Assembly: GCA_009837395.1 (NCBI GenBank)
Contig: VXTP01000039.1
Location: 1-41,172, forward strand
Source: Gemmatimonadota bacterium
GTDB lineage: Bacteria > JAAXHH01
Direction of reading: 5' to 3'
DNA: 41,172 bases
Both the position numbers and the translations under genes were made by a program. The notes under the pieces were generated by a model that worked only from the letters and a program-made list of their open reading frames with translations, was not told the DNA's origin and did not search any database. The first letter of the stretch is position 1, and every line of letters starts with the position of its first letter. Positions 2,886 through 23,595 of the stretch are shown here, one piece after another.

Positions 2886-5237
2886 CTACCCATCCCCCGG
2901 CCGGATCAGGCGGTAGCCGACGCCGCGCACGTTGGCAACGTAGGACGGGTCGTCGGCACTTTCACCGAGCTTTCTGCGTAGTCGCTTGATGATGGCCCGC
3001 ACGAGCCTCGCGTCACCGAGACCGCGCCGGCCCCAGATCTCGCGCAACAGGGTGTCGTAGGTAGCGATCCGCCCCGCGCTAAGCGAAAGCACGCGCAGCA
3101 CCTCGTACTCGGTAGCCGTCAGGGCCACCGGCCGACCCGCGAGCTTGACCTCGCGGCGGTCGTAATCGATGGCCAGCTCGCCGAGCACGAAACGATCCGG
3201 ATTGGCCCGCCGGCGGAGGATGGCCCCGATCCGGGCCGTGAGTTCGGTCGGCGAGAAGGGCTTGACGATGTAATCCTCGGCGCCGGCCTCCAGCGCCCTG
3301 GCGATCGTCTCGTCGCGTCCGTAACCCGAAATGAAGATCACCGGAAGGGTGGCAAGCTCGGGAATCTTCCGCATGAGTTCGATCCCGTCGGATCCGGGCA
3401 GCATCAGGTCGAGCAGGACCAGTTTGGGCTTCTCCGCTTCGATGATGCTCGATATCTCCCGGTGATCGGCCGTCACCACGGCGGAATAGTCCGCGTCGGC
3501 GAGGACGTCGCGCACGTAACTCAGCGTCTGCGGGTCGTCGTCCACGATGAGCACCTTCGTCGGCTGGCGTCCCTCGGAAACCTGACCAGGGGCGTACCGG
3601 GCATCGCCGGCCGCGGTGTCTACGGCGGCCGTCTCCGCGACAGGTATGGTGAAGGTGAAGCGCGTGCCCTTGCCCACGCCCGGACTTTCGGCCCGTATGC
3701 GCCCGCCGTGCGCCTCGACCAGCCCCTTGCAGATGGCAAGACCCAGTCCACCGGCCACGCCGGAGTCTACTACGTTGCGCCCGTACTTGCGAAACAGTCG
3801 CCCCAGCAGTTCCGGTGCAATGCCCCGGCCCTCGTCGGCCACCGCGACCGCGACGTACACGCCGTCCCGCTCGGCCGAGATACGGATAGGGGCCGTTGCC
3901 GCCGAATGGCGGGCGGCGTTGGCCAGCAGATTGTTCAGCACCTGCACGATACGTTTCCGGTCGGCGAGCACCGGGGGCAGATCGGGCGGCAGGTCGATGA
4001 GGACGTTGTGCCTGGCGCCGGCGGACAGGAAAGTGTTGCGGGCCTGGTCCACCAGGAAGCTCACCTCCGAGGGTTCCGGGGTCACCGACAGCGTGCCCGT
4101 ATCGGTGCGCCCCGCGTCGAGCAGGTCGCCGATCAGGCTGTCCATGAGATTGGCCTGTTCATCGATGATCCGGAAGAACTGGCGCACTTCGGCCGGATCC
4201 AGTTCCCGCGAGGCATTCAGCACCGTAGTCGCCGACCCCTTGATGGAGGTCAGCGGCGCGCGCAGCTCGTGGCTCACCATGCTGAGAAACTCGGCCCGCG
4301 TCCGGTCCAGTTCCTGCAGCGCCGCCAGGTCCTGCATGGTGACCACCATCGACGTCACCGCACCGTCCTCGCCGCGAACCGGGGTGGCGCTTACGAGCAC
4401 TGTCACACTGCGGCCGTCGGGTATGGTAATCACGACCTCCACGTCGCGCGCCGTCTCGGAGCTGCGGAGCACCTGGACAAGGGAGAACTGGTCCAGCGCG
4501 ATTTCCCGTCCGTCGGCGAAGCGGCAGGTCGCCACCTCGAGTATGGCTTGAATGGGTTTGCCCGGCAGGCGCAGGTTCTCCGCGATCCGCTTCGCCTCCC
4601 GGTTCAACGACACCGTACTGCCGGTCACCGCTTCGAACACGACGACGCCCACCGGGGAAGTCTCGATCAGCGCCTCGAGGTCGGCCCTGGTGCGCAACTC
4701 GGCGCAGTACTTGCGGGCGTTGGCAATCGCGGCGGCCGCGTGAGGGGCGAACTGCAGGAGGACCTCCTCGTCCTCGTCCGTGAACTCGCCGCCGTTCGTC
4801 TTTCCGGCCAGGAAGAGGATTCCTGTCTGTGTGCCGCGATGACGCATCGGCGCGACCTGGAAGGCACAGGCAGCCGGCAGCGGGTCCGCCGAATTGCCGG
4901 TCTTACGCACGTATTCCGATAAGTCCGCCTGTCTCAGTGGACCGGCCAGGCCGCGGAAGTATTCGAAGAGCTGCGGCCCGTCGGGCCATGCCGACAGTCG
5001 CCGATGCTCCTCGTCGGAGAAATCGGTGGAGACGAAATCCTGGAGAACACCGGCCTCGTCGACGGTGGCGATGGCGCCATAGCGCGCACCAGTGAGCGAC
5101 CTGGCACGCTCCACGACCTCATCGAGGACGGTCTCGAGGTCCAGGTTCGCACTGATACGCAGGATCGCCTCGTTGAGCGCGGCGTTGCGCGCGCGCAGCG
5201 CCTCTACCTCCCGTAACGGATCATCGCGTGCAGTCAA
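2886..5237 (-). CDS. One-piece two-component regulator: GAF-PAS-histidine kinase-receiver-OmpR-type DNA-binding domain
   Basis: A 783-residue soluble protein with no visible membrane segment. Domains in order: GAF (about 20-180), PAS (about 190-305), HisKA with phospho-acceptor His near residue 323 (SMVSHELRAPLTS), HATPase_c (N box NLLANAARHS about 435-445; G box GGLGLAICKGL about 496), receiver (VLIVDDDPQT about 564, phospho-acceptor Asp in LLDLMLPG about 607) and a C-terminal OmpR/PhoB winged helix (about 680-775, ending VRGVGYRLI). Sensor and transcription output are therefore in one polypeptide; these are normally separate proteins. The TTG start is supported by an AGAGG Shine-Dalgarno 8 bases upstream. 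The leader carries a promoter-like sequence overlapped by a 16-bp near-palindrome that recurs upstream of the peptide operon and an M48 gene, so autoregulation and control of those genes is plausible but unproven. Confidence 0.93.
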   Translation of the reverse strand: MTARDDPLREVEALRARNAALNEAILRISANLDLETVLDEVVERARSLTGARYGAIATVDEAGVLQDFVSTDFSDEEHRRLSAWPDGPQLFEYFRGLAGPLRQADLSEYVRKTGNSADPLPAACAFQVAPMRHRGTQTGILFLAGKTNGGEFTDEDEEVLLQFAPHAAAAIANARKYCAELRTRADLEALIETSPVGVVVFEAVTGSTVSLNREAKRIAENLRLPGKPIQAILEVATCRFADGREIALDQFSLVQVLRSSETARDVEVVITIPDGRSVTVLVSATPVRGEDGAVTSMVVTMQDLAALQELDRTRAEFLSMVSHELRAPLTSIKGSATTVLNASRELDPAEVRQFFRIIDEQANLMDSLIGDLLDAGRTDTGTLSVTPEPSEVSFLVDQARNTFLSAGARHNVLIDLPPDLPPVLADRKRIVQVLNNLLANAARHSAATAPIRISAERDGVYVAVAVADEGRGIAPELLGRLFRKYGRNVVDSGVAGGLGLAICKGLVEAHGGRIRAESPGVGKGTRFTFTIPVAETAAVDTAAGDARYAPGQVSEGRQPTKVLIVDDDPQTLSYVRDVLADADYSAVVTADHREISSIIEAEKPKLVLLDLMLPGSDGIELMRKIPELATLPVIFISGYGRDETIARALEAGAEDYIVKPFSPTELTARIGAILRRRANPDRFVLGELAIDYDRREVKLAGRPVALTATEYEVLRVLSLSAGRIATYDTLLREIWGRRGLGDARLVRAIIKRLRRKLGESADDPSYVANVRGVGYRLIRPGDG

Positions 5238-8647: not shown

Positions 8648-8676
8648 GCCCGGCGGAACGATCGCCGGGCTTTTTT
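8648..8676 (+). terminator. Rho-independent terminator
   Basis: A perfect 8-bp GC-rich stem, GCCCGGCG (8648-8655) with CGCCGGGC (8663-8670), a 7-nt loop, then six T (8671-8676). It ends the transcript containing the coiled-coil gene and insulates the peptide operon from upstream transcription. Confidence 0.92.
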
Positions 8677-8951
8677 ATTGCAACAAAAAAAGATTTATCG
8701 CGAGAATCCAAAAATTCCGAAGGACTAATCCATTTAGACCGCGCGGCAGATGCTGGATTCAGTGACCACATCAGGTCGAGTTTCCGTTTGACGATCGAAG
8801 CGCTCTCAGAACCGCGCATTCCGAGACCTGTAACCGAATTCCCTGGTACCAGCGCAGAGAATGAGGTCCGCATCGAAGGAGAACGGAGGATGGAACCTGA
8901 ATCGAAGAGGAAAGGAGGCTGACGGAATTCCAATTGCGTTCGAAAGGTAAA

Positions 8952-8980
8952 TAACACACGTTTGTTATTCGTTCTATACA
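8952..8980 (+). promoter_or_regulatory. Promoter and palindromic operator (site 2) for the peptide operon
   Basis: The near-palindrome TAACACACGTTTGTTA (8952-8967; 7 of 8 pairs symmetric) ends 7 bp before TATACA (8975-8980), a good -10. The sequence at the -35 position (TAACAC) is poor, which would fit activator dependence. The same 16-bp motif at the same 7-bp distance precedes the kinase-regulator gene and the second M48 gene. The ATG of the peptide gene is 38 bp further on. Confidence 0.5.
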
Positions 8981-9018
8981 CGTTCGATCAAACCAGCAAT
9001 AGAGGAGTACTGTTCATT

Positions 9019-9303
9019 ATGAAAAAGCTCATTCTCTCCGTATTCATGTTCGCCCTGATCGCGGGCGCAAGCGTCAACTCGACGGCCAACGCATCGCTGG
9101 GTGAAACGCCCGGTGTCGTAGCGACGCCGAACATTGCCTACTGTTTGTGGGGTTCCGAAGACGCCCGGACAAGCGGTTACGTATTGGGCGGTGTAGGTGG
9201 AGGTGCAGCGGGTGGTTGGGCGATAGTAGCAGGATACGGCCTCGCGGCCACCGTGGGCATTGCAGTAGGAGTCGCCGGTGGGTTTATAGCGCTTGGGTTG
9301 TAG
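9019..9303 (+). CDS. Exported glycine-rich hydrophobic peptide, candidate bacteriocin-like precursor
   Basis: A 94-residue protein starting at ATG 9019 with an AGAGGAG Shine-Dalgarno at 9001-9007. The first 25 residues form a textbook Sec signal (MKKLILSVFMFALIAG..., likely cleaved after ANA). The mature part of about 69 residues has a short polar head with a single Cys (AYCLWGSEDA) and a long Gly/Ala/Val tail with GxxxG-like spacing (GGVGGGAAGGWAIVAGYGLA, then TVGIAVGVAGGF), ending in hydrophobic residues. Such tails insert in membranes and are seen in bacteriocin-type peptides. It heads an operon with SpoIIM-like, Yip1-like, M48 protease and adaptor/permease genes and is followed by a strong hairpin, as is common after abundantly expressed small-peptide genes. 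An ordinary glycine-zipper envelope protein is the main alternative. Confidence 0.8.
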   Translation: MKKLILSVFMFALIAGASVNSTANASLGETPGVVATPNIAYCLWGSEDARTSGYVLGGVGGGAAGGWAIVAGYGLAATVGIAVGVAGGFIALGL

Positions 9304-9317
9304 TCCATAAATAGGCC

Positions 9318-9353
9318 GCAGGGATGAAGGGCTTGAATAGCCTTCATCCCTGC
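9318..9353 (+). promoter_or_regulatory. Intercistronic 13-bp hairpin after the peptide gene
   Basis: GCAGGGATGAAGG (9318-9330) pairs perfectly with CCTTCATCCCTGC (9341-9353) around a 10-nt loop. It begins 14 bases after the peptide stop codon. No T-run follows, so it is not a canonical terminator. It is better read as a processing, mRNA-stabilising or partial-attenuation structure giving more peptide than downstream proteins. It also makes an ATG at 9324, inside the stem, an unlikely start for the next gene. Confidence 0.75.
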
Positions 9354-9398
9354 AAACGGACTCTCAGGACAAACATTAAAGTGATCATTTCCACGCAG

Positions 9399-9959
9399 AT
9401 GACAATGAAGCTTCCATTCATACTGGCTGTGAGTTCCCTCGTGATCGGTCTGTGTATTGGCGCGGTGATTTCCCTGGACTCAACATTAAGGGAAGCAACT
9501 AACAAGCAGTCTTCTACCGCTCCCGTTAATACCCGTCCCCTACTAGACGGCGCCGATGAATGGCGGTACATATTTAGTACGAATCTGATCGTTTCTTTTA
9601 AGATGTTGTTTGGGATTTTGACATTGGGAATGATCGGCATGGTGTCTCTTTGTTGGACCGGAATCAACCTTTCATGGGTTCTTCTGTCCGCATATGAATC
9701 CGGCGTTTCGTTATATGCCATAGCCGCATTGATCCTGCCCCATGGCGTAGTCGAGTTGGCAGGATTTGTGTTCTTCGGCGCTGTTGGATGCGAAGGCCTG
9801 GTTCTCTTCTATCAGAAACTACGGCATGATACATGTCTGATCGATTCAAACAGGCTGGCTGTAAACGTACGCAGACTCGTCACAGGGTTCCTTCTGATTT
9901 CAGCGGCATCAATAATTGAAGCATTTGTAACCGGCCAGATTGCGGCCAAAATCAATTGA
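9399..9959 (+). CDS. SpoIIM/DUF95-like integral membrane protein
   Basis: About 186 residues from ATG 9399; ATG 9405 or GTG 9381 are possible, and none has a strong ribosome-binding site. Four or so membrane segments are visible. The stretch LILPHGVVELAGFVFFGAVG matches the hallmark PHGxxELxxxxxxGxxG signature of the SpoIIM (DUF95) family. Members of that family occur in several circular-bacteriocin gene clusters, where they act in production or self-protection. It sits directly after the peptide gene and overlaps or abuts the next membrane-protein gene. The coding sequence is visibly richer in A+T than the flanking genes, hinting at acquisition from elsewhere. Family assignment is fairly firm; the role is inferred. 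Confidence 0.8.
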   Translation: MTMKLPFILAVSSLVIGLCIGAVISLDSTLREATNKQSSTAPVNTRPLLDGADEWRYIFSTNLIVSFKMLFGILTLGMIGMVSLCWTGINLSWVLLSAYESGVSLYAIAALILPHGVVELAGFVFFGAVGCEGLVLFYQKLRHDTCLIDSNRLAVNVRRLVTGFLLISAASIIEAFVTGQIAAKIN

Positions 9960-9970
9960 TCGGGTCAATC

Positions 9971-10606
9971 ATGATAAAACCAAGTTGGTACTTCGATAGA
10001 TTCTCGTCGATTAGCGTACCCCAGTCTATATGGATGGGCATCGGTGTATTTACTACGTACTTAATAATGAACGGACTGGTGTTGTTCCAAACGTTTAGCA
10101 TAATCAAAGAGCACTTACCGAATCATCTTTCCGGTTTATTTGCACAAGTGTTTCCAGTGCTGTACATCAGCTCGGCAGTGGGTGCCGCCCTAGGTGAGAT
10201 CGCAACCTATATCCTTGGTTGGTTATTCATTATGATCGCCGTAACACTCTTGAACGGTAAACGCCAACACCGTGCTCTGTTTGGATGGCTTGGAATTGTG
10301 TATATCCCAGTCGCATTGTATTCGGCATTGGCATTTACATTCATTCTGCTTTATTCCGACCAAATGGTCCCTGCCGGGGTGTCCGCCATTTCCCAAATCG
10401 AACAGTTGCCAGTTGAAATAATGAAAATGCAAAACTCAGGGTGGTTTCAGTTGATTCGATATGGACGGTATGGCGCGATAGTTCTGGTCGTTATTTTCGC
10501 AATTGAGGTGGTTCACAGGATCTGCGTACTGACCAGGTATAAGGCAACCGGGGCTTTGCTGGCTTATGTTGTCATTATCGGGTTAATACATCTGATCATT
10601 GCATAA
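9971..10606 (+). CDS. Yip1-like integral membrane protein
   Basis: About 211 residues with five or so hydrophobic segments (around 16-38, 55-85, 90-110, 160-180 and the C terminus LLAYVVIIGLIHLIIA). The pattern resembles Yip1-domain proteins (YLIMNGLVLF, then a long first loop, LGWLFIMIAVTLLNGKRQHRALFGWLGIVYIPVAL). A TTG at 9956, overlapping the SpoIIM-like stop, is an alternative start that would couple translation. Relatively A+T-rich like its two neighbours. It may form a membrane complex with the SpoIIM-like protein for peptide processing, export or self-protection; this is inference from order only. Confidence 0.7.
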   Translation: MIKPSWYFDRFSSISVPQSIWMGIGVFTTYLIMNGLVLFQTFSIIKEHLPNHLSGLFAQVFPVLYISSAVGAALGEIATYILGWLFIMIAVTLLNGKRQHRALFGWLGIVYIPVALYSALAFTFILLYSDQMVPAGVSAISQIEQLPVEIMKMQNSGWFQLIRYGRYGAIVLVVIFAIEVVHRICVLTRYKATGALLAYVVIIGLIHLIIA

Positions 10607-10617
10607 GTATGAATTGA

Positions 10618-11556
10618 TTGGAGTTTCCAGTGTGTATTAACAAGTCCAGTATAAATCAAAAAACCGAGTATACGATTAAGGATGAAGTGATCCGGTTGTC
10701 ATGGAATGAAAAACTGGCAGAATTTGGATTACACATGGGATTGGTGATTTCGGGGATGTTGATTACCGCTGTCGTTTACTTCGGATTACTAATCATAACA
10801 TTCGATACAGTCGATACGATAGTACCAGGTTATTGGAGTGATTCAACAATAAAATCAGTGGCTCTTGTAATCGTGTCCGCCTGTACCGGTAATGCATGTG
10901 CTTTTTTCTGCTTTCCCTACTTGATACGACTGGTCTTTCGAGGGTATGAACTACAGGACAATCGCTTGGACCGCTCGGTTAGGAAACTTGTTTCGGCAAC
11001 CGGAATGAACATCACGGCAGAGAGGCTATATGCTATAAACAGTAAAACGGCGAATGCGGTTGTTTCAGGATTGTTTCGTAAATCACGATACATATTCTTC
11101 ACGAAAAAGTTATTGGAGAAAATGACAGAAGAGGAAATAATCGCAATCTTTGCCCACGAACTGGCTCATGCAAAACACCGGCATATTCCCAAAATGTTGT
11201 TCGCTGTAATGCTATGGATATGCGCAATACAGACCTTCCTGTATTTGATAGGCTTTAATCACTACTTCAATGCAAGTGATGAGTCCCTGAAAATGTTGGT
11301 TGTCAGTTTGATTACCTGTTTGAATGTATGGCTGATGTTGTTCCTGGTTCTATTTCCGTTATCGAGAAAGAATGAATATGAAGCGGATTCAACTGCAGCG
11401 TCATGGGTCGGAATTGACAGTTACAAAAGTGCGCTCCACCGTTTGTATCAGTTGAATGACAAATTAAAACCACCTCCGGTATATACGAGAGTACTGCAAC
11501 CACATCCCACCCTGCAAGATCGCCTCGACCGCGTTGCACAGTTGAACTCGAAATAG
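10618..11556 (+). CDS. M48-family (HtpX/Ste24-like) membrane zinc protease, copy 1
   Basis: A 312-residue protein from a TTG start 11 bases after the Yip1-like gene; an in-frame ATG at 10609 is followed at once by a stop. There are two N-terminal membrane segments, then a conserved block (TANAVVSGLFRKSRYIFFTKKLLEKM) and the zinc site HELAH (residues 180-184), with the third ligand Glu in NEYEADS (about 253). Two further membrane segments lie between them. The C terminus PHPTLQDRLDRV is typical of M48 peptidases. It is clearly paralogous to the gene at 16047-16997. In this operon it could mature the exported peptide or clear it from the membrane. A+T-rich compared with its paralogue. Confidence 0.9.
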   Translation: MEFPVCINKSSINQKTEYTIKDEVIRLSWNEKLAEFGLHMGLVISGMLITAVVYFGLLIITFDTVDTIVPGYWSDSTIKSVALVIVSACTGNACAFFCFPYLIRLVFRGYELQDNRLDRSVRKLVSATGMNITAERLYAINSKTANAVVSGLFRKSRYIFFTKKLLEKMTEEEIIAIFAHELAHAKHRHIPKMLFAVMLWICAIQTFLYLIGFNHYFNASDESLKMLVVSLITCLNVWLMLFLVLFPLSRKNEYEADSTAASWVGIDSYKSALHRLYQLNDKLKPPPVYTRVLQPHPTLQDRLDRVAQLNSK

Positions 11557-11593
11557 TTGAGTTTTAATCCGATGAAAAGGAAACATCCCTACA

Positions 11594-12796
11594 TTGAAAC
11601 TTCATCGACTTTTAGTATTGACGGCACTTTGCGTCTTGCTCGACCTGCGATTTGCTTCGCATGGGGCAGTGCCGGACTCCCTGGCGCTGTCCGAATTCGC
11701 CAGGATCATGACCGCATTCTCCGAAGCGCCCGGTCACTTCCCGGGGGACAATTTCGTTACCAATGAATCGTCCTACCTGCACGTCGTTCCCACGGTCATC
11801 GAACTAGGCAAACGCGGCGGCGTCTACATCGGCGTCGGTACGGAGCAGAACTTCTCCTACATTGCCGCCTCGAGACCGGATATCGCTTTCATCGTCGACA
11901 TCCGTCGCGAAAACCTGCTTCAGCATCTCCTCTACAAAGCCCTTTTTACCCAGGCCCGGGACCGAACGTCCTTCCTGATGCTGCTGTTCAGCAGGAAGTA
12001 TCGGGATGGCGAATCGGATGCGATCGGACGGCCGGACCGCACGGCTTCCGTTACCGAAATCCTGGATTACATCGAAACGTCGACCACGGCCGACTCCCTG
12101 CTTTTTGTAGAAAACTGGAAGCGGCTTCGGCGTGAAATAAGGCGGTACGGGATCGAAGACCGGGACGATCTCGACAAGATGCTGTACATCTACCGGTCGT
12201 TCTACGAAAAACAGCTTTCGATCCGCTATGCCGAAACACCCCTGGGAAACGGCCTGTCTTATCCTGCGTTCAGGGACCTGATGGCAGGTAAGACGAAAGA
12301 AGGGGAATACGCCAGTTTCCTGAGTACCGAAGACGCGTTCGGGTTTGTGAAGCACCTGCATCTCAAGAACCTGGTCATTCCCGTCGTGGGAAACTTCGCG
12401 GGCGGGAAGGCGCTGAGGGCCATCGGCACTTTCGCCGAAGCTCACGAAACGAGCGTATCCGTTTTCTACGTTTCAAACGTCGAGTACTTCCTGATCAACC
12501 ACTTCTACTACGTGTTCAAGTGGTACGTCGCGAATGTCGACGCGCTTCCGATCGATGAGCACAGCCTGATGATCCGTTCCTACCTGGGCGTGGAATCCCA
12601 TCCCAGGAGAGTCGGCCGGCATCTGTCCACGAGCACGGCACATCACATTGGCACGTTCCTGGAGAGTTACAGGCGGGGTGCGTATACCCGTACGAAACCG
12701 GTCTGGTGGAGGTTCTGGCCCTGGGACAGTCCATTCTGGTCCGGCGGCGGACACAGCTACTACCATCTGGTTATCATGGGGGATCTATGTCCATGA
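11594..12796 (+). CDS. Exported conserved protein of unknown function
   Basis: About 400 residues from TTG 11594 with a signal peptide (MKLHRLLVLTALCVLLDLRFASHGA). The body contains YIGVGTEQNFSYIAASRPDIAFIVDIRR, which resembles a conserved bacterial family whose fold is reminiscent of SAM-dependent methyltransferases (possibly the LIC_10091 family); I hold this loosely. Other recognisable stretches are YASFLSTEDAFGFVKHLH and VPVVGNFAGGKALRAIG in modified form, and VSVFYVSNVEYFL. No catalytic motif that I can name. The gene returns to the GC-rich codon usage of the region, overlaps the next gene by 10 bp and is therefore translationally coupled to it. Confidence 0.75.
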   Translation: MKLHRLLVLTALCVLLDLRFASHGAVPDSLALSEFARIMTAFSEAPGHFPGDNFVTNESSYLHVVPTVIELGKRGGVYIGVGTEQNFSYIAASRPDIAFIVDIRRENLLQHLLYKALFTQARDRTSFLMLLFSRKYRDGESDAIGRPDRTASVTEILDYIETSTTADSLLFVENWKRLRREIRRYGIEDRDDLDKMLYIYRSFYEKQLSIRYAETPLGNGLSYPAFRDLMAGKTKEGEYASFLSTEDAFGFVKHLHLKNLVIPVVGNFAGGKALRAIGTFAEAHETSVSVFYVSNVEYFLINHFYYVFKWYVANVDALPIDEHSLMIRSYLGVESHPRRVGRHLSTSTAHHIGTFLESYRRGAYTRTKPVWWRFWPWDSPFWSGGGHSYYHLVIMGDLCP

Positions 12797-13518
12797 GCGC
12801 TTCCATAGATCTGGCAAAATACGCCGGTCGATGGCTCCAGGTTTTCTACCGACCGGGGAAGGCATTCGCGGATCTTGAATCAGAACCTGCCTCCGCCGAG
12901 TGGATGCTGATGCTGGTCCTGGTCATGTCGGTCGTTCTTTGCGCCGGAATAGTCACTTTGCCCGTTGCGATGGATAGGGAAAAGGCGTTGTTCGAGACCG
13001 AATTCCAGTCTTATTCGGATCTGAGTGCAGATCAACAATCCGTCATACTACGCGAGGCCGTGCAATTCGACCATCGTCAGCTCATCGGCCTTTTCGTCCT
13101 GCCGGCGAGCGTCTGCTTCATGGTCGCTGCGTGGTCGGTCGTGGGCAAACACTGCGGTGAATTGATCTTCGGCAAGCCGCTGCCCTACGGCAAGGTCGTT
13201 CCGATAACCGTCTATGCCTCGCTAGTCCTGGTACCCGAAACCATCGTCAAGACCTCGCTGGTCTTGCTGACCGGTTCGCTCGATCCCCCCATCCATCCTG
13301 GTGTGTTTCTCGGTGATGCGGACCCCGAAACGCTCTGGAGCCTGTTCCTGCCTGGCGTCGATTTCTTCGGAGTCTGGTTCCTTTTCCTGCTGGGACTCGG
13401 CCTGGCACAGACTTTCCGGGGATCGGCCAGGCTCACCCGGCTCGCGCTGGGACTGATGTGGGGCATGTGGATTGTCATTCGCAGGACTTTCGAGTTGCTC
13501 GGTACGGTTTACGTGTAG
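12787..13518 (+). CDS. Yip1-domain membrane protein (second)
   Basis: A 243-residue protein. ATG 12787 follows a GGGGGA Shine-Dalgarno and overlaps the end of the preceding gene by 10 bp. The N terminus (VFYRPGKAFADL) is the typical short soluble start of Yip1-domain proteins, followed by about five membrane segments (about 36-58, 100-125, 150-170, 195-215, 222-243). Yip1 proteins commonly precede periplasmic-adaptor and MacB-type genes in GC-rich environmental bacteria, as here. A role in the assembly or energisation of that exporter is a reasonable guess. Confidence 0.8.
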   Translation: MSMSASIDLAKYAGRWLQVFYRPGKAFADLESEPASAEWMLMLVLVMSVVLCAGIVTLPVAMDREKALFETEFQSYSDLSADQQSVILREAVQFDHRQLIGLFVLPASVCFMVAAWSVVGKHCGELIFGKPLPYGKVVPITVYASLVLVPETIVKTSLVLLTGSLDPPIHPGVFLGDADPETLWSLFLPGVDFFGVWFLFLLGLGLAQTFRGSARLTRLALGLMWGMWIVIRRTFELLGTVYV

Positions 13519-13539
13519 CTACTGGTAACCATTTTGGTC

Positions 13540-14754
13540 ATGAAAAAACGGTTAATCATTACCTCTGTAACGGCCTGCAGCCTCGTAGCCCTTCTGCTGT
13601 ATTTCGTGTTCACTTCCACGGCTCGCGATGCCACGTTCCGGATCCTCCAGGTACAACACGGATCGATTTCCGATGTGCTGGCGGAAACGGGAACCATCCA
13701 GTTCGTCCGAACCGTCATGGTCAAGCCCACGATTTCCGGGGAAGTCAGGCACATTCACGCCGATGTTGGAGATCGGGTTTCAGCGGGGGATGTGCTTGCC
13801 GTGATAGAGCCGGACCCGTCCCAGTCCCTGCAGTTGTCCCGGCAGCGCGCACGGGTGGACGGTGCCCGGATCGATCTTTCCGAAAGGGCGTTGAACTTCG
13901 AGCGAAAGCGCGCGCTTCATGAGCGGTCCCTGATTTCGTCGGAGGAATTCGACCAGGCAAGGATCGCGCACACCAGGGCCCGTCACGACCTCGACATGGC
14001 GGAGCTCGAACTCCAGATTCTGGAATTGAAGGTAAACGTCGAGGTGGATGCGAACCAGACGCATACTGCCGTGCGGGTCCTGTCGCCCCTGGAAGGTATC
14101 GTCATTGCCCGCACGGTGGAAGAGGGCGAGGTCGTGGCATCAGGTACTTCTTCGTATACCGGCGGCACGGAGATGTTCCGTATCGGCGATCCGGACCGGA
14201 TGATCGTCAAATCGGCCGTTGGTGAAATTGACGCGGGACGGGTCCGGCCCGGACAGGACGTGCGGATTCGTGTCGATGCCTACCCGGACGCGATGTACCA
14301 TGGACGGGTGGAGCGCGTCGCGCCGGTCGGTGTGCGCAGGCCCGGCAGCACGCTGGTCACGTTCGATGCCGAAATCGTGATATCGGACCCATCGATGGAA
14401 TTGCAGCAGGGCATGTCCTGCGATATCGACATCGTGGTGGAGCAGAACGACCACGCGGTGCTGGTGCCTGCTTCTTCCGTCATGGAAGTGGTCGACAACC
14501 AGGGTGCGTTCAATGAACAAGGCGATCCTGCATTGACCGGGTCGGCGTCCGGCAGGCGGTACACGGTCTATCGTTGCACATCGGCGGATCCCGGATCGTC
14601 GAGGTGCCCGGAATCGTACCTGGTATCCGCCATGGTCGAGATCGGTATCGAATCGACCGAAAACGTGGAGATCCTGTCCGGCATTGAACCCGGCGCGCAC
14701 ATTGCACTGGATGCCCGGGCGGTTCATGCCGCACTGAACGCGAAACACCCTTAA
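13540..14754 (+). CDS. Periplasmic adaptor (HlyD/MacA-type membrane fusion protein)
   Basis: A 404-residue protein from ATG 13540, with one N-terminal anchor segment (LIITSVTACSLVALLLYFVF). The layout is typical of membrane fusion proteins: first biotinyl-lipoyl half (VKPTISGEVRHIHADVGDRVSAGDVLAVIEPD), a long alpha-helical hairpin (about 90-165, QLSRQRARVDGARIDLSERAL...), second lipoyl half (RVLSPLEGIVIARTVEEGEVV) and beta-barrel/membrane-proximal domains. It would link the inner-membrane FtsX-type permease, encoded 21 bp downstream, to an outer-membrane factor not seen here. An Asn/Gly/Ser-rich insertion near 330-360 precedes the last beta-barrel strand. Confidence 0.92.
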   Translation: MKKRLIITSVTACSLVALLLYFVFTSTARDATFRILQVQHGSISDVLAETGTIQFVRTVMVKPTISGEVRHIHADVGDRVSAGDVLAVIEPDPSQSLQLSRQRARVDGARIDLSERALNFERKRALHERSLISSEEFDQARIAHTRARHDLDMAELELQILELKVNVEVDANQTHTAVRVLSPLEGIVIARTVEEGEVVASGTSSYTGGTEMFRIGDPDRMIVKSAVGEIDAGRVRPGQDVRIRVDAYPDAMYHGRVERVAPVGVRRPGSTLVTFDAEIVISDPSMELQQGMSCDIDIVVEQNDHAVLVPASSVMEVVDNQGAFNEQGDPALTGSASGRRYTVYRCTSADPGSSRCPESYLVSAMVEIGIESTENVEILSGIEPGAHIALDARAVHAALNAKHP

Positions 14755-14775
14755 GCTCAAAGGATCCTGTCGTCT

Positions 14776-15999
14776 GTGTCCATAACGCACCATATCCAGT
14801 CCGTGATTGCCAATCTCACGCACTACAGGCTGCGTTCAGCGCTGACGCTGCTGGGGATCGCGGTCGGCGTCGGCGCCGTAACCGCCATCATCGCGATCGG
14901 CGAAGGGCTTCACGACATGGTGATGGCGGAGTTCGAATCTGTGCGCGGCGGCACCATGGTATGGGTGAGTCCATCGAGATTCGTAAACCGGGATGGACAG
15001 TGGCTCGAGGTACCGGATTACGAGCATCTCGTCTGGCAGGACGTGCTGGAAATCGGCAGAAGGTCGAACGCCGTGCGCCAGGTGGTCCCGGCCGCGACAT
15101 TGAACGCGGATCTCAGGTACGTGAAAACGTCCCATGGCGGGATGGTGTACGGCACGACACCATCGTTTTCGGACCTGTACCAGTGGCCGGTTTCCAGGGG
15201 CCGGTTCATTATCAATCGCGACGTAACACGCTGGCGCAAAGTATGCGTGCTGGGCGATGAGCTGGCCGCTAAACTGTTTGGCGACACCGACCCGGTCGGC
15301 AAGGAACTGAAACTGAACGGTCAGCGGTTTGCCGTGATCGGCGTCATGGAGGCAAAGACGGTTTTCAATGAAAGCTGGGGAAACCGGGTCTTCGTTCCGA
15401 TTACAACGGCCCAGGAACGGATGCTTGGCCATGAAGGCTTCGATCTTCTGTCCATCAAGGTGGTGGATTCGCGTGTTTTGGAAAGTGCGGTGGGTGACAT
15501 CGAGGCAGCCTTGAGGTCTGTCCACGGCGATGAGGCCGGATTCGACATCGTCAGCGGGAAGGACGCCATGGACCAGATCGGTGGCGTAATCAACGCCGTC
15601 AAATCTTCGATTGCCGCCCTGGCGGGCATCTCGCTGATGGTGGGCGGAATCGGGATCATGAACATGATGCTGGTCTCCGTCACTGAACGGCGGCGGGAAA
15701 TAGGCATTAGGAAGTCAGTAGGGGCAAGGCATGTCGATATCGTGAATCAGTTTACGCTGGAAGCCACCTGTATCAGCGCTTTAGGCGGTTTGCTGGGGAT
15801 ATCGCTGGGACTGGGCCTCGGTTCGGTTTTTTCGTTTGTCTTGAATCAGGTGTGGGACCTTGGTTTCACGAGTGGCGCTTCGGTTTCGAATATCCTCGTA
15901 TCGCTGGCGATTTCACTGGCCATAGGCCTTTGCGCAGGTATCTATCCGGCCTTGAAGGCATCGCAGTTGAGCCCGGTGGATGCGATGAACCAGGAGTGA
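14776..15999 (+). CDS. MacB/FtsX-type ABC transporter permease lacking its ATPase
   Basis: A 407-residue protein from a GTG start with an AAAGGAT Shine-Dalgarno. The N-terminal membrane helix (LRSALTLLGIAVGVGAVTAIIAIGEG) is followed by a large periplasmic MacB_PCD domain (about 50-250) and three C-terminal helices with the FtsX signature (GGIGIMNMMLVSVTERRREIGIRKSVGA, then LLGISLGLGLGSV). This is the permease half of a MacB-like mechanotransmission ABC system. No protein with Walker motifs lies between the adaptor and the permease or anywhere in this operon, so the ATPase must be encoded elsewhere or is absent. It ends 47 bp from the convergent M48 gene. Confidence 0.93.
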   Translation: MSITHHIQSVIANLTHYRLRSALTLLGIAVGVGAVTAIIAIGEGLHDMVMAEFESVRGGTMVWVSPSRFVNRDGQWLEVPDYEHLVWQDVLEIGRRSNAVRQVVPAATLNADLRYVKTSHGGMVYGTTPSFSDLYQWPVSRGRFIINRDVTRWRKVCVLGDELAAKLFGDTDPVGKELKLNGQRFAVIGVMEAKTVFNESWGNRVFVPITTAQERMLGHEGFDLLSIKVVDSRVLESAVGDIEAALRSVHGDEAGFDIVSGKDAMDQIGGVINAVKSSIAALAGISLMVGGIGIMNMMLVSVTERRREIGIRKSVGARHVDIVNQFTLEATCISALGGLLGISLGLGLGSVFSFVLNQVWDLGFTSGASVSNILVSLAISLAIGLCAGIYPALKASQLSPVDAMNQE

Positions 16000-16046
16000 G
16001 TCCGTTAAACCAAAGCAGATCGGTTGCGGAACGCACCAATGGTGTG

Positions 16047-16997
16047 CTATTCGAGACTCCCCACCCGCTCCAGCCTTTCCTGCAGCGTCGGATGGGTGCC
16101 GAGCTTCGCCAGGAACTTTCGCGGCGGTTTCAGCTGGTCGTTGATCTGATACAGCCGGTAAAGGGCCTGCTTGTACAGGCCGATGCCCACCCACAGGGCA
16201 GCGGTCCCGTCCGCCTGGTATTCGTTACGCCTCGAAAGCGGGAACAGGACGAGGAACATAAGCAGGTAGATATTCACTAAGTTTATTCCGGAAAACACCC
16301 ACATTTTCCAGGATTCTCCGATCGAATCGAAGTAGGCATAGTAGTCGATCAGACTCAGAAATACTTGGACGACGAGGGTCCATAGCAGGAGAACCAGGAA
16401 CATCCAGGTCATGTGCCGGTGCCGCCCATGGGCCAGTTCGTGGGCCAGGGCCGCCATGATCTCTCCTTCGCTCATACGCTCCAGGAGCTTGTCGGTAAAG
16501 AAGATGTACTGTGCCTTGCGGAAAAGGCCGGACACGACGGCGTTGGCGGTCTTGCCCTTTATGGCGTAGATCCTCTCGGCCTTGATGTCCATCCCGGTCA
16601 CGGAGATCAAGTGATTCACGGCGCGGTCCATCCGATCGTCCTTCAACTCGTTGCCTCGAAAGAGGAGACGTATGATGTAGGGCGCGCAGCTGAACGAACA
16701 TACATTGCCGATGGCCACGGCCACGACGACCAGGATGATGAACGGGATCGATCCCGCCTCCGTGAATCCCGGCGCCAAATCATTCAGGGTATTGCGCATG
16801 GTAATCAGAGAAGTCACGGCGACCAATACCCCGATCAGCGTGCCGAACATGGCCATCGCCATTACCAGGCCGAATTCGACCAGCTTCTCACGCCAGTTCA
16901 GCCGGATCGTATCGTCAACGGTCTGGTCCGGCTGGTCCGGACCTTCTGCATGAGATACCCCGTCATTCATGGGTACGTCGTTCCCATTGTTACGCAC
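16047..16997 (-). CDS. M48-family membrane zinc protease, copy 2
   Basis: A 316-residue protein; GTG start with GGAGG 7 bases upstream. Zinc motif HELAH at residues 186-190 and a third-ligand motif NEYQADG, with the same membrane topology as the 10618-11556 protein. The two share long stretches: IRLxWxEKLxEFGL, KTANAVVSGLFRK, LVLFPLSR, DQLKPP/DKLKPP and HPTLQxRLxRV. This copy is GC-rich like the host genes. It is on the opposite strand, closing the peptide locus, and its promoter carries the same operator-like sequence as the peptide operon. The pair may divide signal-peptide remnant clearance and peptide maturation, or one may be a housekeeping HtpX-like protease. Confidence 0.9.
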   Translation of the reverse strand: MRNNGNDVPMNDGVSHAEGPDQPDQTVDDTIRLNWREKLVEFGLVMAMAMFGTLIGVLVAVTSLITMRNTLNDLAPGFTEAGSIPFIILVVVAVAIGNVCSFSCAPYIIRLLFRGNELKDDRMDRAVNHLISVTGMDIKAERIYAIKGKTANAVVSGLFRKAQYIFFTDKLLERMSEGEIMAALAHELAHGRHRHMTWMFLVLLLWTLVVQVFLSLIDYYAYFDSIGESWKMWVFSGINLVNIYLLMFLVLFPLSRRNEYQADGTAALWVGIGLYKQALYRLYQINDQLKPPRKFLAKLGTHPTLQERLERVGSLE

Positions 16998-17241: not shown

Positions 17242-20200
17242 TCATCGCGTGATAGCACAGTTCTCTACTCTTCTATCCTCGATTCCCGCCAGCCACATCT
17301 GGAATCCGGCGTTCAAAGGGGCGCACAACTGTGTGTCTTGCAACTTCAGCCGTTCAAGGGGTACATTGACGAGTTCGAGAGGGAGCCGCCCGGACATTTG
17401 CGTGTTCCGTGTCAGAATCAACTGCTTGAGATTCGTGAGTCGGCCGAATTCCGGTGGAATTGAACCGGTAAAGTCGTTGTGAGAGAAAAACAGCCACGAT
17501 AACTCAGTCAGTTTTCCGATCTCCGGAGGGAGAGGACCGGTCAACTTGTTGTTAAACAGTTCGATGTGTGTCAGCCTGGTCATTTGACCGATTTCGGGTG
17601 GGATGGAACCGGTCAACTCGTTAGCACTGACATCAAGCCCATCCAGATTGGTCAGTTTTCCGACCTCCGGGGGGATAACACCTTCCAATCGGTTATACTG
17701 AAGACTCAGCAACTCCAGACTGGACAGTTGTCCGATTTCAGGTGGGATGGGGCCGGTCAGCCGGTTGTGGTTAAGCCACAGGTTGCGGAGACTCTCGAAT
17801 GACAGGATTTCGGTTGGAATCGTCCCGGTCAGTTCGTTAGATCGCAACACAAGCCATTCCAGGTTGCCCAATCGTCCAATCTCGACAGGGATAGCGCCTG
17901 ATATCTGGTTGTATTCAAGGAATAGATCCGTGAGTTTCGAAAGCATTCCAATCTCTGGCGGAATGGAACCGGTCAACTGGTTCTGTCCCAGATCCAACAC
18001 TTTCAGACTGCCCAGCTGCCCGATCTCGGGGGGAATCGGACCACTCAACGAGTTTCTGAAGAGTCGCAGCGTTCGCAGATCGGACAGTTGCCCGATCTCG
18101 GGTGGAATCATTCCGAGCAGGTTGTTCTCGCTCAGTCGCAGGTCGATCACCTTCACTTCGTTGTCTGTCGCTACACCGTACCAGGTTCCAATAGGTTCGT
18201 CGCTCAGCCAGTTTGTGTTGTCCGTCCAGTTCGGACCATCGGTCGCGTGGTAGAAGGCAATGAGCGCGTCGCGGTCGGACGAGGTATCTGACGACGGCGG
18301 AGGTTCCGGATCTGTGTCAGGTCCTGGCATGGTGGCACAGTTCTCCACGCTTTTATCCTCGATTCCCGCCAGCCACATCTGGAATCCGGCGTTCAAAGGC
18401 GCGCACAACTGCGTGTTTTGCAATCTGAGCTGTACCAGGGGAACATTCACGAGTTCAATTGGGAGAGGTCCGGACAAATCACGATTATCGTTCAGTATCA
18501 GCCGATCCATCTTATTGAGTTGCCCGATTTCGGGTGGAAGACCTCCGGACAACTGGTTGTCGCTTAAAATGAGGCTCTTGAGACCGACAAGTTGGCCGAT
18601 TTCTGACGGGATTTCGCCGGTCAACCGGTTTCCGTGCAACACCAGGCCATTCAGGTTTACAAGCTGTCCGATCTCGGACGGAATCTCTCCGGTCAGTAAG
18701 TTGTCGTTTAACAACAAGCCGTTCAGCTTTTCAAGTTGCCCGATTTCGTGCGGGATCACGCCCGTTAACCGGTTGCCTTCGAGCGACAGGGAGCCCAGAT
18801 TCAAAAGTTGCCCGATTTCGTGCGGGATTACGCCCGTGAGCTGATTCCCGTTCAGGGCGAGATAGGCCAGATTACTCAATTGTCCGATTTCAGGCGGAAT
18901 ATGTCCGGTAAATTGGTTCGTGGAGAGGTGCAGGTCTATTAGATTGGCCAGTTTCCCTATCGCAGGTGGAATTTCGCCCGATAGCTGATTGTCAAACAGT
19001 GACAGGATCATGAGTGTGTTTGACTGATAGGTTTCAGGTGGAATTTCGCCGGTGAGTTGATTGTCCCCCAGGTGCAAATACCGCAGTGCGTTCATTTTTC
19101 CGAATACAGGCGGGATTGTACCGGTGATACGGTTGCGCGACAGATTCAGCAGTATAAGGTTCTGCAGTTGTTCGATTTCAGGCGGAATGGATCCGGTCAA
19201 CTGGTTCTCGCGCAGACTGAGCTTGGTCACCCTCCCATCGGCGTCCGTGGACACTCCGTACCATTCATTGAGAGGATTCTCACTCAGCCACTTGGTATTG
19301 TCCATCCAGTTCGGGCCGTCCGTTGCGTGGTAGAAAGCGATCAGTGCTTCGCGATCGGCCGACGTACCCGGCGGCTCCGGTGGCGGTGGAGGCGGTTCAG
19401 GTGGCACAGGCGGCGGCTCGGGCTGCTCTGTATCCTCGATGACCACGTGTATGATCGCCTGCGCCGACACGCCGCGGGAGGAAGCCGTGATCCGCGTCGT
19501 GCCGTTCGCCACCGCGATCACCAGGCCGCTGGCGTCCACCGTGGCGATCTCCGGCCGGCTGCTCGTCCACGCCACCGCCGCGCCCGGGATGGCTGCCCCT
19601 GCCGAATCGTACACCTGGGCGTCCAGCTGCAGGCTCTGGCCCACGGTCGCCAGCGTCGCTTCTGTTACGTTGAGCACGACACGCGAAGGCACCCGCGGGA
19701 CCTCGACGAACACCGGCCGGGACGTGGAGACTCCACCCGAGGAGGCCGTGATCAGGGCGGATCCCCGCGACACCGCCGTCAGCCGTCCGTTGGCGTCCAC
19801 CGTGGCGATCTCCGGATTACTGCTGGACCAGACCACCGCCGCATCCGGGATGGGCCTGTTGTTCGCGTCGTAGACGACCGCCGTGAATCGGCCTGTCCCG
19901 CCCACTTGCGAAATCGTGATGGCAGATGGGCTGATCTCGATGCTGCTCGCCTCCTGCTCCACCGAGACCGTCGCGGTAGCCGTGGCGTAACCTGAACTGA
20001 CGCTGATCTGTGTCGTTCCGCTCCCAGCGGCCGTCACCACGCCCCGGTCGCTGACCCGGGCGACACTGTTGTCCGCGCTGCGCCAGTGCACCGTGGCGTC
20101 GGTGATCACCCTGCTGTCCTGGTCCAGCACCGTGGCGTCGATGCGTATACTCTCGTTGATGGCCGTGAAGACGATCCGGTAGGTCGACAGCGTGATCGTG

Positions 20201-20370
20201 GTGGGCTCTTGCACCGGCGGTGCGGAAGGACTCTTCAGGCAGGCGGAAAACAGTCCGAAGATAAGCACCGCAAGGGACAGGTGAAAGCTATTCCGTAGGG
20301 AGTGGAACGCGGAAACAGTCGCGATCAAATCAGCGTCCTGCGGTAGGGTTCGGTATGCGTTGTTGCGCAA
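17242..20370 (-). CDS. BIG2-LRR lipoprotein with two LRR modules
   Basis: A 1042-residue protein, TTG start at 20370 (no ATG precedes the signal). The N-terminal signal ends LFGLFSAC, a lipobox-like site, so it is probably a lipoprotein. Three Ig-like BIG2 domains follow (about 50-310, each with a WSSSNPEIATVDANG-type core), then a Pro/Glu linker (EPPPVPPEPPPPPPEPPG). Two complete LRR modules come next. Each has an N-cap (FYHATDGPNWxDNTxWLS), 11 plant-type LRRs of 24 residues (LTGxIPPEIGQLxxL) and a C-cap with paired Cys (LCAPLNAGFQMWLAGIED). The two C-caps are nearly identical at DNA level, showing internal duplication. Likely a surface recognition or adhesion protein. A strong promoter lies upstream at 20408-20436. 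Confidence 0.9.
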   Translation of the reverse strand: MRNNAYRTLPQDADLIATVSAFHSLRNSFHLSLAVLIFGLFSACLKSPSAPPVQEPTTITLSTYRIVFTAINESIRIDATVLDQDSRVITDATVHWRSADNSVARVSDRGVVTAAGSGTTQISVSSGYATATATVSVEQEASSIEISPSAITISQVGGTGRFTAVVYDANNRPIPDAAVVWSSSNPEIATVDANGRLTAVSRGSALITASSGGVSTSRPVFVEVPRVPSRVVLNVTEATLATVGQSLQLDAQVYDSAGAAIPGAAVAWTSSRPEIATVDASGLVIAVANGTTRITASSRGVSAQAIIHVVIEDTEQPEPPPVPPEPPPPPPEPPGTSADREALIAFYHATDGPNWMDNTKWLSENPLNEWYGVSTDADGRVTKLSLRENQLTGSIPPEIEQLQNLILLNLSRNRITGTIPPVFGKMNALRYLHLGDNQLTGEIPPETYQSNTLMILSLFDNQLSGEIPPAIGKLANLIDLHLSTNQFTGHIPPEIGQLSNLAYLALNGNQLTGVIPHEIGQLLNLGSLSLEGNRLTGVIPHEIGQLEKLNGLLLNDNLLTGEIPSEIGQLVNLNGLVLHGNRLTGEIPSEIGQLVGLKSLILSDNQLSGGLPPEIGQLNKMDRLILNDNRDLSGPLPIELVNVPLVQLRLQNTQLCAPLNAGFQMWLAGIEDKSVENCATMPGPDTDPEPPPSSDTSSDRDALIAFYHATDGPNWTDNTNWLSDEPIGTWYGVATDNEVKVIDLRLSENNLLGMIPPEIGQLSDLRTLRLFRNSLSGPIPPEIGQLGSLKVLDLGQNQLTGSIPPEIGMLSKLTDLFLEYNQISGAIPVEIGRLGNLEWLVLRSNELTGTIPTEILSFESLRNLWLNHNRLTGPIPPEIGQLSSLELLSLQYNRLEGVIPPEVGKLTNLDGLDVSANELTGSIPPEIGQMTRLTHIELFNNKLTGPLPPEIGKLTELSWLFFSHNDFTGSIPPEFGRLTNLKQLILTRNTQMSGRLPLELVNVPLERLKLQDTQLCAPLNAGFQMWLAGIEDRRVENCAITR

Positions 20371-22323: not shown

Positions 22324-23595
22324 TCAGTTACCCGAACAGAAAACAACCCCTCCAAGCGTATTGCTAAATCTAAGACCTCTTACCATTTCCAACCAGGCCC
22401 GAAAGTCAGGGTGGGTTGGCGCGCACAGACCGGTACCTATCAAATCCAGCGACCTGAGCATGGTGAGTTGGGTGAGTTCAAACGGCAAGGCCCCCGTCAG
22501 TCGTATATTGTGATTGAGATACAGCAGATCAAGGTTACCCAATCCACCCAATTCGGGAGGAATCGAACCCGATAGCTGGTTATTCGAAAGTCTTAACTCT
22601 TCGAGCACCGCCAGGTTACCCAATTCCGGGGGAATTTGTCCACTGAGCCCGTTATTCTGCAATGAAATGAACCGTAGGCTGGACATGTTGCCCAACTCCG
22701 ATGGGATACTTCCCGTTATGCGGTTGGACGATAGAGATAAATCAACAAGGTTTTCAAGTCGGCCTACAGATCCCGGTATTTCTCCACTCAGTGCGTTCTC
22801 GTACAACCATAATCCCTCGAGATTGACGAGGTTACCCAATGACGAAGGAATTGAACCACTTAGATCGTTCATACCTAAAGCCAATATCCGAAGTTTGGGA
22901 AAGTTGCCGAGGGACGCGGGTATCTCACCACTTAAATTGGCGTGGGCGATCCGAAATTCCTCGAGGTTGCGAAGCTGCCCGACGGCACCGGGGATATTCC
23001 CGGTGATCGAATTCCCGCCAAGATCCAGGATTCTGAGTTCGTCAAGGTCTCCCAGCGCCGCCGGTAGTACTCCACTCAGACCGTTGCCCCAGAGGTTCAA
23101 TTCTGTTACACGGTCGTCCGGACTGACGGTCACACCATGCCAGGCGCTGATAGGAAACGAACTCGCCCAGTTCGCGCTGTTCTCCCAGGCGGGACCTCCC
23201 AGGGCATTGTAAATGGCAACCAGCGCCGCCCGGTCTTTGCTGACGATCACCACGACGGTCGCTTCACTGGCGCCCGACTTCACGGTAATGTCCGCTCTCC
23301 CGAACGAATGGACGGTAAGAACCCCCTGGTTGTTCACACTGACAATCTCGGGCTCGCTGCTTGACCAGTTCAATGGCGCGTCCTCGATCGGCAATCGGTT
23401 CTCATCCAGCACGACGGCTTCAATGGAAACGGATTCGCCGATTCCAAGGTACAGAAGCGTCGAAGAAACATTGATCGTGGTCGGGATGGGCTCGGTGGCC
23501 TCTGTGGGGCTGAAGATACATCCTCCCCACATCAACAGGAGCGCTGTCGTAACGGAAACTCCCCATACCTGGTTCTTAGAGGTTTTATGCATCAT
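22324..23595 (-). CDS. BIG2-LRR lipoprotein, short form
   Basis: A 423-residue protein with two adjacent ATG codons; GAGGAG abuts the first, so the second (23592) may be used. The signal ends in the lipobox LLMWGGC. One BIG2 domain (about 38-118, core WSSSEPEIVSVNNQG) is followed by the cap AIYNALGGPAWENSANWASSFPISAWHGV, nine LRRs of the IP type and a C-cap with paired Cys (LCAPTHPDFRAWLEM, then VVFCSGN). It is the most divergent LRR protein in the window. It is encoded 12 bp after a SAM methyltransferase gene and 41 bp before a winged-helix regulator, so all three are probably co-transcribed. Confidence 0.9.
   Translation of the reverse strand: MMHKTSKNQVWGVSVTTALLLMWGGCIFSPTEATEPIPTTINVSSTLLYLGIGESVSIEAVVLDENRLPIEDAPLNWSSSEPEIVSVNNQGVLTVHSFGRADITVKSGASEATVVVIVSKDRAALVAIYNALGGPAWENSANWASSFPISAWHGVTVSPDDRVTELNLWGNGLSGVLPAALGDLDELRILDLGGNSITGNIPGAVGQLRNLEEFRIAHANLSGEIPASLGNFPKLRILALGMNDLSGSIPSSLGNLVNLEGLWLYENALSGEIPGSVGRLENLVDLSLSSNRITGSIPSELGNMSSLRFISLQNNGLSGQIPPELGNLAVLEELRLSNNQLSGSIPPELGGLGNLDLLYLNHNIRLTGALPFELTQLTMLRSLDLIGTGLCAPTHPDFRAWLEMVRGLRFSNTLGGVVFCSGN

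Follow-up and report, generated by a model that had tools for sequence, protein, structure and literature searches.

A hypervariable peptide core exchanged between Latescibacterota species with its SpoIIM, Yip1-like and M48 genes: a probable bacteriocin-like system

Does a small exported peptide of an uncultured bacterium belong to a dedicated system with its own protease and self-protection, and if so, of what kind? The question arises from a 41,172-nucleotide stretch of DNA (the window), in which an operon opens with a 94-residue precursor. A preliminary description had listed eight genes there (peptide, SpoIIM, Yip1-like, M48 protease, exported protein, second Yip1, HlyD and FtsX), and open reading frames together with Pfam matches bear out all of them. 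They are closely packed at 9019-15999 on the plus strand. The claim of a single orientation is correct for these eight genes and fails for the described interval, which also contains a second M48 gene (M48b) on the minus strand.

Gene content of the locus

The features of the locus are as follows.

8648..8670, plus strand: intrinsic-terminator-like hairpin (9-bp stem, then TTTTTT), setting the peptide operon apart from the gene upstream of it
9019-9303, plus strand: precursor gene, 94 aa, with a leader part and a core part
9019..9132, plus strand: leader-coding part, codons 1-38; signal peptide-like MKKLILSVFMFALIAGASVNSTANA plus SLGETPGVVATPN
9133..9303, plus strand: core-coding part, 56 aa (IAYCLWGS...FIALGL) and stop; hydrophobic, Gly/Ala 48%, net charge -1
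9133..11507, plus strand: exchangeable cassette of core, SpoIIM, YipA and nearly all of M48a, delimited by identity drop and recovery at both ends, dS, GC and AU tests
9315..9354, plus strand: long RNA hairpin without a U-tract, just 3' of the peptide stop (z -4.2)
9399..9959, plus strand: SpoIIM/DUF95-family membrane protein (Pfam 2.2e-13; family A2); the frame opens at 9324, and the conserved part and likely start are at about 9399
9956..10606, plus strand: YipA, Yip1-like multi-spanning membrane protein with five hydrophobic segments; candidate immunity/transport protein
10618..11556, plus strand: M48a, HtpX/Ste24-type membrane metalloprotease (Pfam M48 4e-28) with intact HELAH...NEYEAD and four hydrophobic segments
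11594..12796, plus strand: exported DUF7790/LIC_10091-like protein (Pfam DUF7790 6.6e-36)
12778..13518, plus strand: YipB, a YknW-like Yip1 protein (Pfam Yip1 5.1e-8)
13534..14754, plus strand: HlyD/RND-type periplasmic adaptor, MacA/YknX-like (Pfam HlyD 8e-18; NCBIfam RND_mfp 5e-36, above cut-off)
14776..15999, plus strand: MacB/FtsX-type permease without ATPase, YknZ-like (Pfam MacB_PCD 1.5e-40, FtsX 3e-18)
16047..16997, minus strand: M48b, paralogue of M48a (~55% identical), transcribed towards the operon; present at the same locus across the genus

The precursor divides into a conserved, Asn-terminated leader of 38 residues and a hypervariable, Gly/Ala-rich, hydrophobic core, with median amino acid identities of 82% and 42%, respectively. 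Since it is conserved in 13 genomes with near-invariant leader positions, the peptide is not a chance open reading frame. Asn precedes the core in 13/14 precursors, and a Cys near the core start is invariant; several cores have a second Cys, and the window's own core has one. As the leader resembles a Sec signal peptide with an ANA/S site, signal peptidase could cut there first. None of the 14 precursors matched a bacteriocin family in Pfam or NCBIfam, and comparison with bacteriocin families and solved structures revealed no sequence similarity. The AlphaFold2 model of the core was unreliable (pLDDT 52). Three leads were discarded: a match to the PG1828 lipoprotein was confined to the signal peptide, Cys42 is too distant from the hydrophobic segment for lipoprotein processing, and the best of the weak matches outside the phylum came from a cytochrome-c-like protein, at its signal peptide.

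The hairpin that follows the precursor gene recurs at the same position in the congeners tested (z -2.8 to -5.7), its stem sequences varying by allotype, and is a candidate RNA-stabilising or attenuating element. A 7-bp inverted repeat ~50 bp 5' of the gene is only partially conserved, and Rfam gave no convincing match near the operon. SpoIIM is single-copy in the genome, and its profile aligned with the SpoIIM proteins of gassericin, plantacyclin and AS-48 (hhalign probability 92.5%, E 5e-7). The match of YipA to Pfam Yip1 is weak alone (0.13); 11 of 13 family members match weakly, the best at 6.6e-5. The motifs expected of an M48 peptidase, HELAH or HEVAH with NEYEAD, are present in M48a of every congener having the gene.

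Exchange of the core with three partner genes

The peptide was found in 13 genomes of the phylum Latescibacterota, 12 in one genus and one in a second. The relatives' genomes, assembled from metagenomes of uncultured Latescibacterota, appear to derive from marine sponges. The peptide, SpoIIM and YipA families have matching phylogenetic distributions across 384 genomes, and all three are missing from the other 3 members of the phylum and from ~370 further sampled genomes. SpoIIM and YipA adjoin the peptide in 13/13 carriers, and M48a is next in 12/12 where the contig continues. Thus, the pattern that the preliminary description had set against its own proposal, peptide homologues without SpoIIM, Yip1 and M48, was not seen in the relatives. 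The dedicated unit of peptide, maturation and protection that it envisaged is further supported by the way these genes travel together when they are swapped.

In congeners with flanks 88-95% identical, a drop in DNA identity to ~50-60% begins precisely at the leader/core codon; low identity persists across SpoIIM, YipA and M48a, with recovery within the last M48a codons. Against one congener (G002), the 114 nt of the leader are 100% identical, identity is ~50% from the next codon on, and recovery comes at ~11507, a 3' end accurate to about 10 bases. In all, the leader-coding 114 nt are 100% identical to those of two congeners whose cores are unrelated at the DNA level. Corresponding dS values are ~0.2 in all flanking genes, >1.8 in SpoIIM, YipA and M48a, and 2.4 in the core; GC is 0.45 in the cassette vs 0.58-0.64 in the flanks. 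The cassette tree joins genomes G000 and G004 (100/100), where flank trees place G000 elsewhere. A common history of cassette and flanks was rejected (p-AU 9e-65 upstream, 2e-8 downstream and 1.6e-4 in the cassette); therefore, the core and its partners travel as a cognate set. The dS jump and the tree conflict rule out relaxed selection as the cause of divergence. Furthermore, dN/dS is low within the cassette genes, which are therefore under selection. M48a is thus placed inside the exchanged block and is a candidate leader peptidase or cyclase. No small cationic gene was seen in the locus, and YipA and SpoIIM, which co-travel with the core, are candidate immunity proteins.

Comparison with known systems and rival explanations

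The locus most likely encodes an allotypic, bacteriocin-like RiPP system whose mode of working resembles that of the group ii (gassericin A-like) circular bacteriocins, a reading to which we give a probability of about 0.6. Group ii members (gassericin A, acidocin B, butyrivibriocin AR10 and plantaricyclin A) share with the locus a long leader with a terminal Asn and cores of similar size, hydrophobicity and charge. Their cores have 58 residues, GRAVY 1.00-1.06 and charge -2 to +2, with leaders of 22-33 residues (PMC6131525); cores across our relatives have 52-61 residues, GRAVY 0.90-1.38 and charge -2 to +1. An asparaginyl site is conserved in gassericin-type precursors (PMC8659200), and in cerecyclin, with its N4-V5 site, Asn also stands before the core (PMC8534725). 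The layout equals that of gassericin, where gaaA is followed by a strong 3' hairpin and then SpoIIM, and the second precursor in tandem in one genome (G006) has counterparts in some circular clusters. However, the locus precursor and gassericin A do not align, so that homology is undetectable, and the locus lacks the ABC ATPase/permease pair, has an M48 protease and a Yip1-like protein, and belongs to a diderm phylum. Surveyed circular precursors come from Firmicutes, two Actinobacteria and one Thermotogae, and the stated minimum of their clusters is precursor, SpoIIM and ATPase (PMC8534725). Of the features of such clusters, the locus has the adjoining SpoIIM and a small precursor made up of a leader and a hydrophobic core; it lacks the ATP-binding transporter protein and a precursor match to a known family. 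Its Sec-like leader and the absence of the usual aromatic C-terminal residue also differ from most circular bacteriocins.

The likeness to circular-bacteriocin loci is nevertheless closer than had been claimed. SpoIIM and Yip1 are listed in surveyed clusters, and two of them have an M48 gene as the third gene downstream from the precursor (PMC8659200), a spacing identical to that of our locus. Those two group 1 clusters differ in having amylocyclicin- or enterocin NKR-5-3B-like precursors and a transporter. Nothing there ties M48 to the peptide, whereas M48a of our locus is exchanged with the core.

The preliminary description had also assigned the HlyD adaptor and FtsX permease to the system as its export part. 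They form a separate, slowly evolving unit without an ATPase and are absent from the second genus, and we therefore place them outside the core system. The DUF7790 protein evolves slowly too, is retained in the second genus and has paralogues elsewhere. No ABC ATPase occurs in the window (0 of the genome's 49 ATPase domains), nor was one found there or in 15 related loci with the genome's 25 own ATPases as queries. Three of the four YknWXYZ components (Yip1, adaptor and FtsX permease) are present in the same order as in this Bacillus SDP protection pump; the YknY ATPase is missing, and YipB scores far below the NCBIfam YknW_fam cut-off (1.1e-6, 28 bits vs 110). Enterocin AS-48 (as-48EFGH) likewise combines a precursor, SpoIIM, an adaptor and a MacB/FtsX permease, and the locus permease is 28% identical (1e-24) to its self-protection permease. 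In contrast, AS-48 has two ATPases, As-48E has no match to YipB, and the adaptor similarity is marginal.

These pump components bear on an unlikely alternative, that of a linear, Sec-exported, membrane-active cannibalism-type toxin like Bacillus subtilis SdpC, externally processed, countered by immunity proteins in the membrane together with a YknWXYZ-like pump, and never cyclised. The signal-peptide-like leader with its ANA/S site and the Cys residues of the cores would suit such a toxin, as would the resemblance of YipB to YknW, since YknWXYZ confers protection against SDP (PMC4887032). However, the single Cys of the window's core precludes an intramolecular disulfide, no SdpA, SdpB or SdpI relative was identified in the operon, and SpoIIM marks circular, not SDP, loci. 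The missing ATPase and the second genus without HlyD/FtsX also argue against it.

Block exchange would be equally expected of a pheromone or kin-recognition ligand matched to a Ste24-like processing protease and a membrane receptor or transporter. The nearest solved structure to M48a is indeed Ste24p, a pheromone-processing protease, and a hybrid sensor kinase is encoded upstream of the operon. Nevertheless, this kinase lies outside the exchanged block, conserved along with the flanks, and the very hydrophobic core of 52-56 residues is unlike diffusible pheromones, which makes this reading improbable. Least probable is a small membrane protein with a structural or housekeeping role, accompanied by its HtpX-like quality-control protease (M48/HtpX proteases serve in membrane quality control), with divergence from relaxed constraint: conservation in 12/12 genomes of the main genus would fit, but the jump of dS as well as dN at exact boundaries, the conflicting trees and the low dN/dS speak for exchange under selection.

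A proposed mechanism and its meaning

Under the preferred, gassericin A-like reading, the precursor would be made in excess over its partners by means of the hairpin after its gene, and the signal-like leader would insert it into or across the inner membrane. M48a, the membrane metalloprotease that we infer to be the maturation enzyme, would cut after Asn38, possibly with head-to-tail joining into a circle, and the hydrophobic core of 52-56 residues would be freed as a presumably membrane-active peptide. SpoIIM and YipA may be the cognate membrane proteins for maturation or export and for self-protection, and YipB-HlyD-FtsX might act as an accessory pump, like YknWXYZ or As-48EFGH, dependent on a borrowed ATPase. 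Between species, recombination moves the core together with its cognate partners in a single block; the leader would serve as upstream homology arm, and each lineage would therefore carry one of several allotypes. More tentatively, and with the odds leaning against it, the locus may represent a class of diderm membrane peptides that mature, by cyclisation or in another way, independently of an ATPase, with the co-encoded M48 as leader peptidase or cyclase; the class would diversify through joint exchange of core, SpoIIM, Yip1 and M48 in one cassette that starts at the leader/core codon.

Other natural-product clusters have been reported from the host phylum, and a peptide-SpoIIM-Yip1-M48 cluster was not found in that literature. 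For the SpoIIM-Yip1-M48 set, PMC8659200 was the sole relevant match in a search that mostly left aside subscription papers and preprints, so that a prior description is possible. For circular bacteriocins, no enzyme of leader removal and cyclisation has been identified, a matter that the same survey states as open (PMC8659200). Here, natural recombination amounts to genetics already done: SpoIIM, the Yip1-like protein and M48 change with the core, and all else stays. Three genes, one of them a protease, are therefore singled out, and the block exchange points to the M48 protease as a candidate maturation enzyme of circular-bacteriocin-like peptides. If this is true, the range of such bacteriocin-like systems would also take in an uncultured, diderm phylum.

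Gene content and distribution of the locus

The window is a single 41,172-bp contig within a 3.8-Mb draft genome, whose close relatives are 'Candidatus Latescibacterota' MAGs (two labelled Gemmatimonadetes); isolate names suggest sponge samples as the source of the relatives' MAGs. Eukaryote-like repeat proteins such as LRR and Big_2 proteins are typical of sponge symbionts. Five large LRR proteins are encoded on the contig, four with bacterial Ig-like (Big_2) domains:

26-2866, large LRR protein
17242-20370, large LRR protein
22324-23595, large LRR protein
34473-36260, large LRR protein
36297-40199, large LRR protein

The preliminary description placed a candidate peptide production, maturation and export locus at 9019-16997, with all genes on one strand. 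Every gene it named was found on the plus strand (9019-15999), namely the precursor, SpoIIM, YipA (Yip1-like), the protease M48a, DUF7790, YipB (second Yip1), an HlyD adaptor and a MacB/FtsX-type permease (FtsX); the interval additionally holds M48b, a minus-strand paralogue of M48a. No ABC ATPase accompanies the permease at the locus. An intrinsic terminator (8648-8670) sets the upstream gene apart, so that the operon's own transcription unit probably starts at the peptide gene. The preceding DNA (8680-9018) is conserved between congeners (88-100%) like coding DNA, and an inverted repeat of 7 bp (AATAACA/TGTTATT), some 50 bp ahead of the peptide start, is partially conserved among them. On the opposite strand, 2886-5237 encodes a hybrid sensor kinase (HK) with GAF/PAS, receiver and OmpR-type DNA-binding domains in one protein, conserved along with the flanks.

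The peptide occurs in 12/12 genomes of the genus and in a single genome from a second genus in the same family, and was not found in three other phylum members examined. Across 384 genomes, the SpoIIM and YipA families are distributed identically to it, except for one borderline SpoIIM match in an unrelated genome. The order peptide-SpoIIM-YipA is kept in 13/13 genomes, with M48a next in 12/12 (the 13th contig stops after YipA). In the second genus, peptide-SpoIIM-YipA-M48a-DUF7790-YipB precede unrelated genes; HlyD, FtsX and M48b at the locus are confined to the first. The conserved core of the locus is these six genes, peptide through YipB. Since there is no second SpoIIM anywhere in the genome, the operon's copy is a dedicated one. 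DUF7790/LIC_10091-like exported proteins, distant matches to the solved structure 6ulo, have at least one copy in 16/16 phylum genomes and share about 40% identity with the operon's own (11594-12796); one paralogue lies at G000:C24:443427-444425 in the window's own genome.

The precursor and a likeness to circular bacteriocins

The precursor comprises a conserved leader (residues 1-38, MKKLILSVFMFALIAGASVNSTANA-SLGETPGVVATPN), ending in Asn (Gln in 1/14 precursors), and, from residue 39, a Gly/Ala-rich, hydrophobic and strongly variable core (median pairwise identity 82% for the leader versus 42% for the core). One relative (G006) has two tandem precursors with near-identical leaders. The cores (52-61 aa, GRAVY 0.90-1.38, charge -2 to +1) overlap in range with group ii circular bacteriocins (PMC6131525: length 58 aa, GRAVY about 1.0, charge -2 to +2), whose asparaginyl cleavage site (PMC8659200) resembles the Asn-ending leader. 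Directly 3' of the peptide stop codon, every congener examined has a long hairpin (12-15 bp) without a U-tract (in G006 it follows the second precursor), with z-scores of -2.8 to -5.7 in the congeners tested and a stem sequence differing between allotypes, the cassette versions carried by different lineages; the second genus has none at the corresponding spot. Gassericin A has a hairpin in the same position, and for AS-48, mRNA processing takes place between the precursor and its partner genes (PMC3942455). The hairpin is likely to keep the precursor in excess over its partner proteins.

The locus most likely operates in the manner of circular bacteriocin loci, and it has SpoIIM, Yip1 and also the position of M48 in common with two published clusters (PMC8659200). 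It is not classed as one, because the ATPase sought at the locus was not found and none of the 14 precursors matched a known bacteriocin family in Pfam or NCBIfam. Circular precursors are almost confined to Firmicutes in a published survey (PMC8534725), and published accounts of Latescibacterota from sponges name clusters of RiPP-like, LAP, ranthipeptide and further types, and no bacteriocin cluster resembling the present locus. Elsewhere in the genome, an ABC transporter (G000:C36:238133-241527, L128) has an N-terminus resembling a C39 peptidase domain, which suggests a separate double-glycine-leader peptide system.

In the most likely mechanism, the leader would bring the precursor to the inner membrane, where M48a, a membrane protease of the Ste24/HtpX type whose motifs are intact, would cleave after Asn38 and perhaps also join the ends. 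SpoIIM and YipA would handle and tolerate the product, and YipB-HlyD-FtsX would form an accessory pump, YknWXYZ- or As-48EFGH-like, dependent on another ATPase of the genome; an ATPase lies beside an FtsX-type permease at three other loci. We infer cleavage, cyclisation, activity and immunity; direct observation covers anatomy, co-inheritance and recombination.

Exchange of the cassette

Core, SpoIIM, YipA and nearly all of M48a form a cassette exchanged as one block. DNA identity to the congeners G002 and G003 is 88-100% from upstream through codon 38 (100% over the 114-nt leader), about 50-60% from the very next base across 2.37 kb, and again 90-95% from about 11507, inside the last 16 codons of M48a. 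Correspondingly, dS versus G002 is about 0.2-0.3 for HK, DUF4159-like (our own label for an 874-aa gene without a Pfam match), DUF7790, YipB, HlyD, FtsX and M48b, and 1.8-2.5 for SpoIIM, YipA and M48a (2.4 for the core). The window's cassette is akin to the one in G004, a genome with distant flanks, and the cassette tree conflicts, with strong support, with both flank trees (AU test p = 9e-65 upstream flank, 2e-8 downstream flank, 1.6e-4 cassette). Four allotypes were found (G000/G004; G001-3, 7, 8, 10; G006; G005/9/11). GC is lower in the cassette than in the flanks wherever both were measurable, bar G003, whose short upstream piece is as GC-low as the cassette.

G008 (locus L031, 1-18000) is a further mosaic, with a foreign upstream flank and a cassette near-identical to that of G010, and represents an independent recombination near the leader; its upstream flank matches G011 (HK 93%, 874-aa gene 83%). 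In some congeners M48b (16047-16997) is more variable than the adjacent FtsX (71% and 92%, respectively, in G007), and its exchange may thus have been separate from that of the main cassette.

Read most simply, the pattern means that core, SpoIIM, YipA and M48a need to match one another, with the leader exempt, being recognised by something common and serving as a homology arm for exchange.
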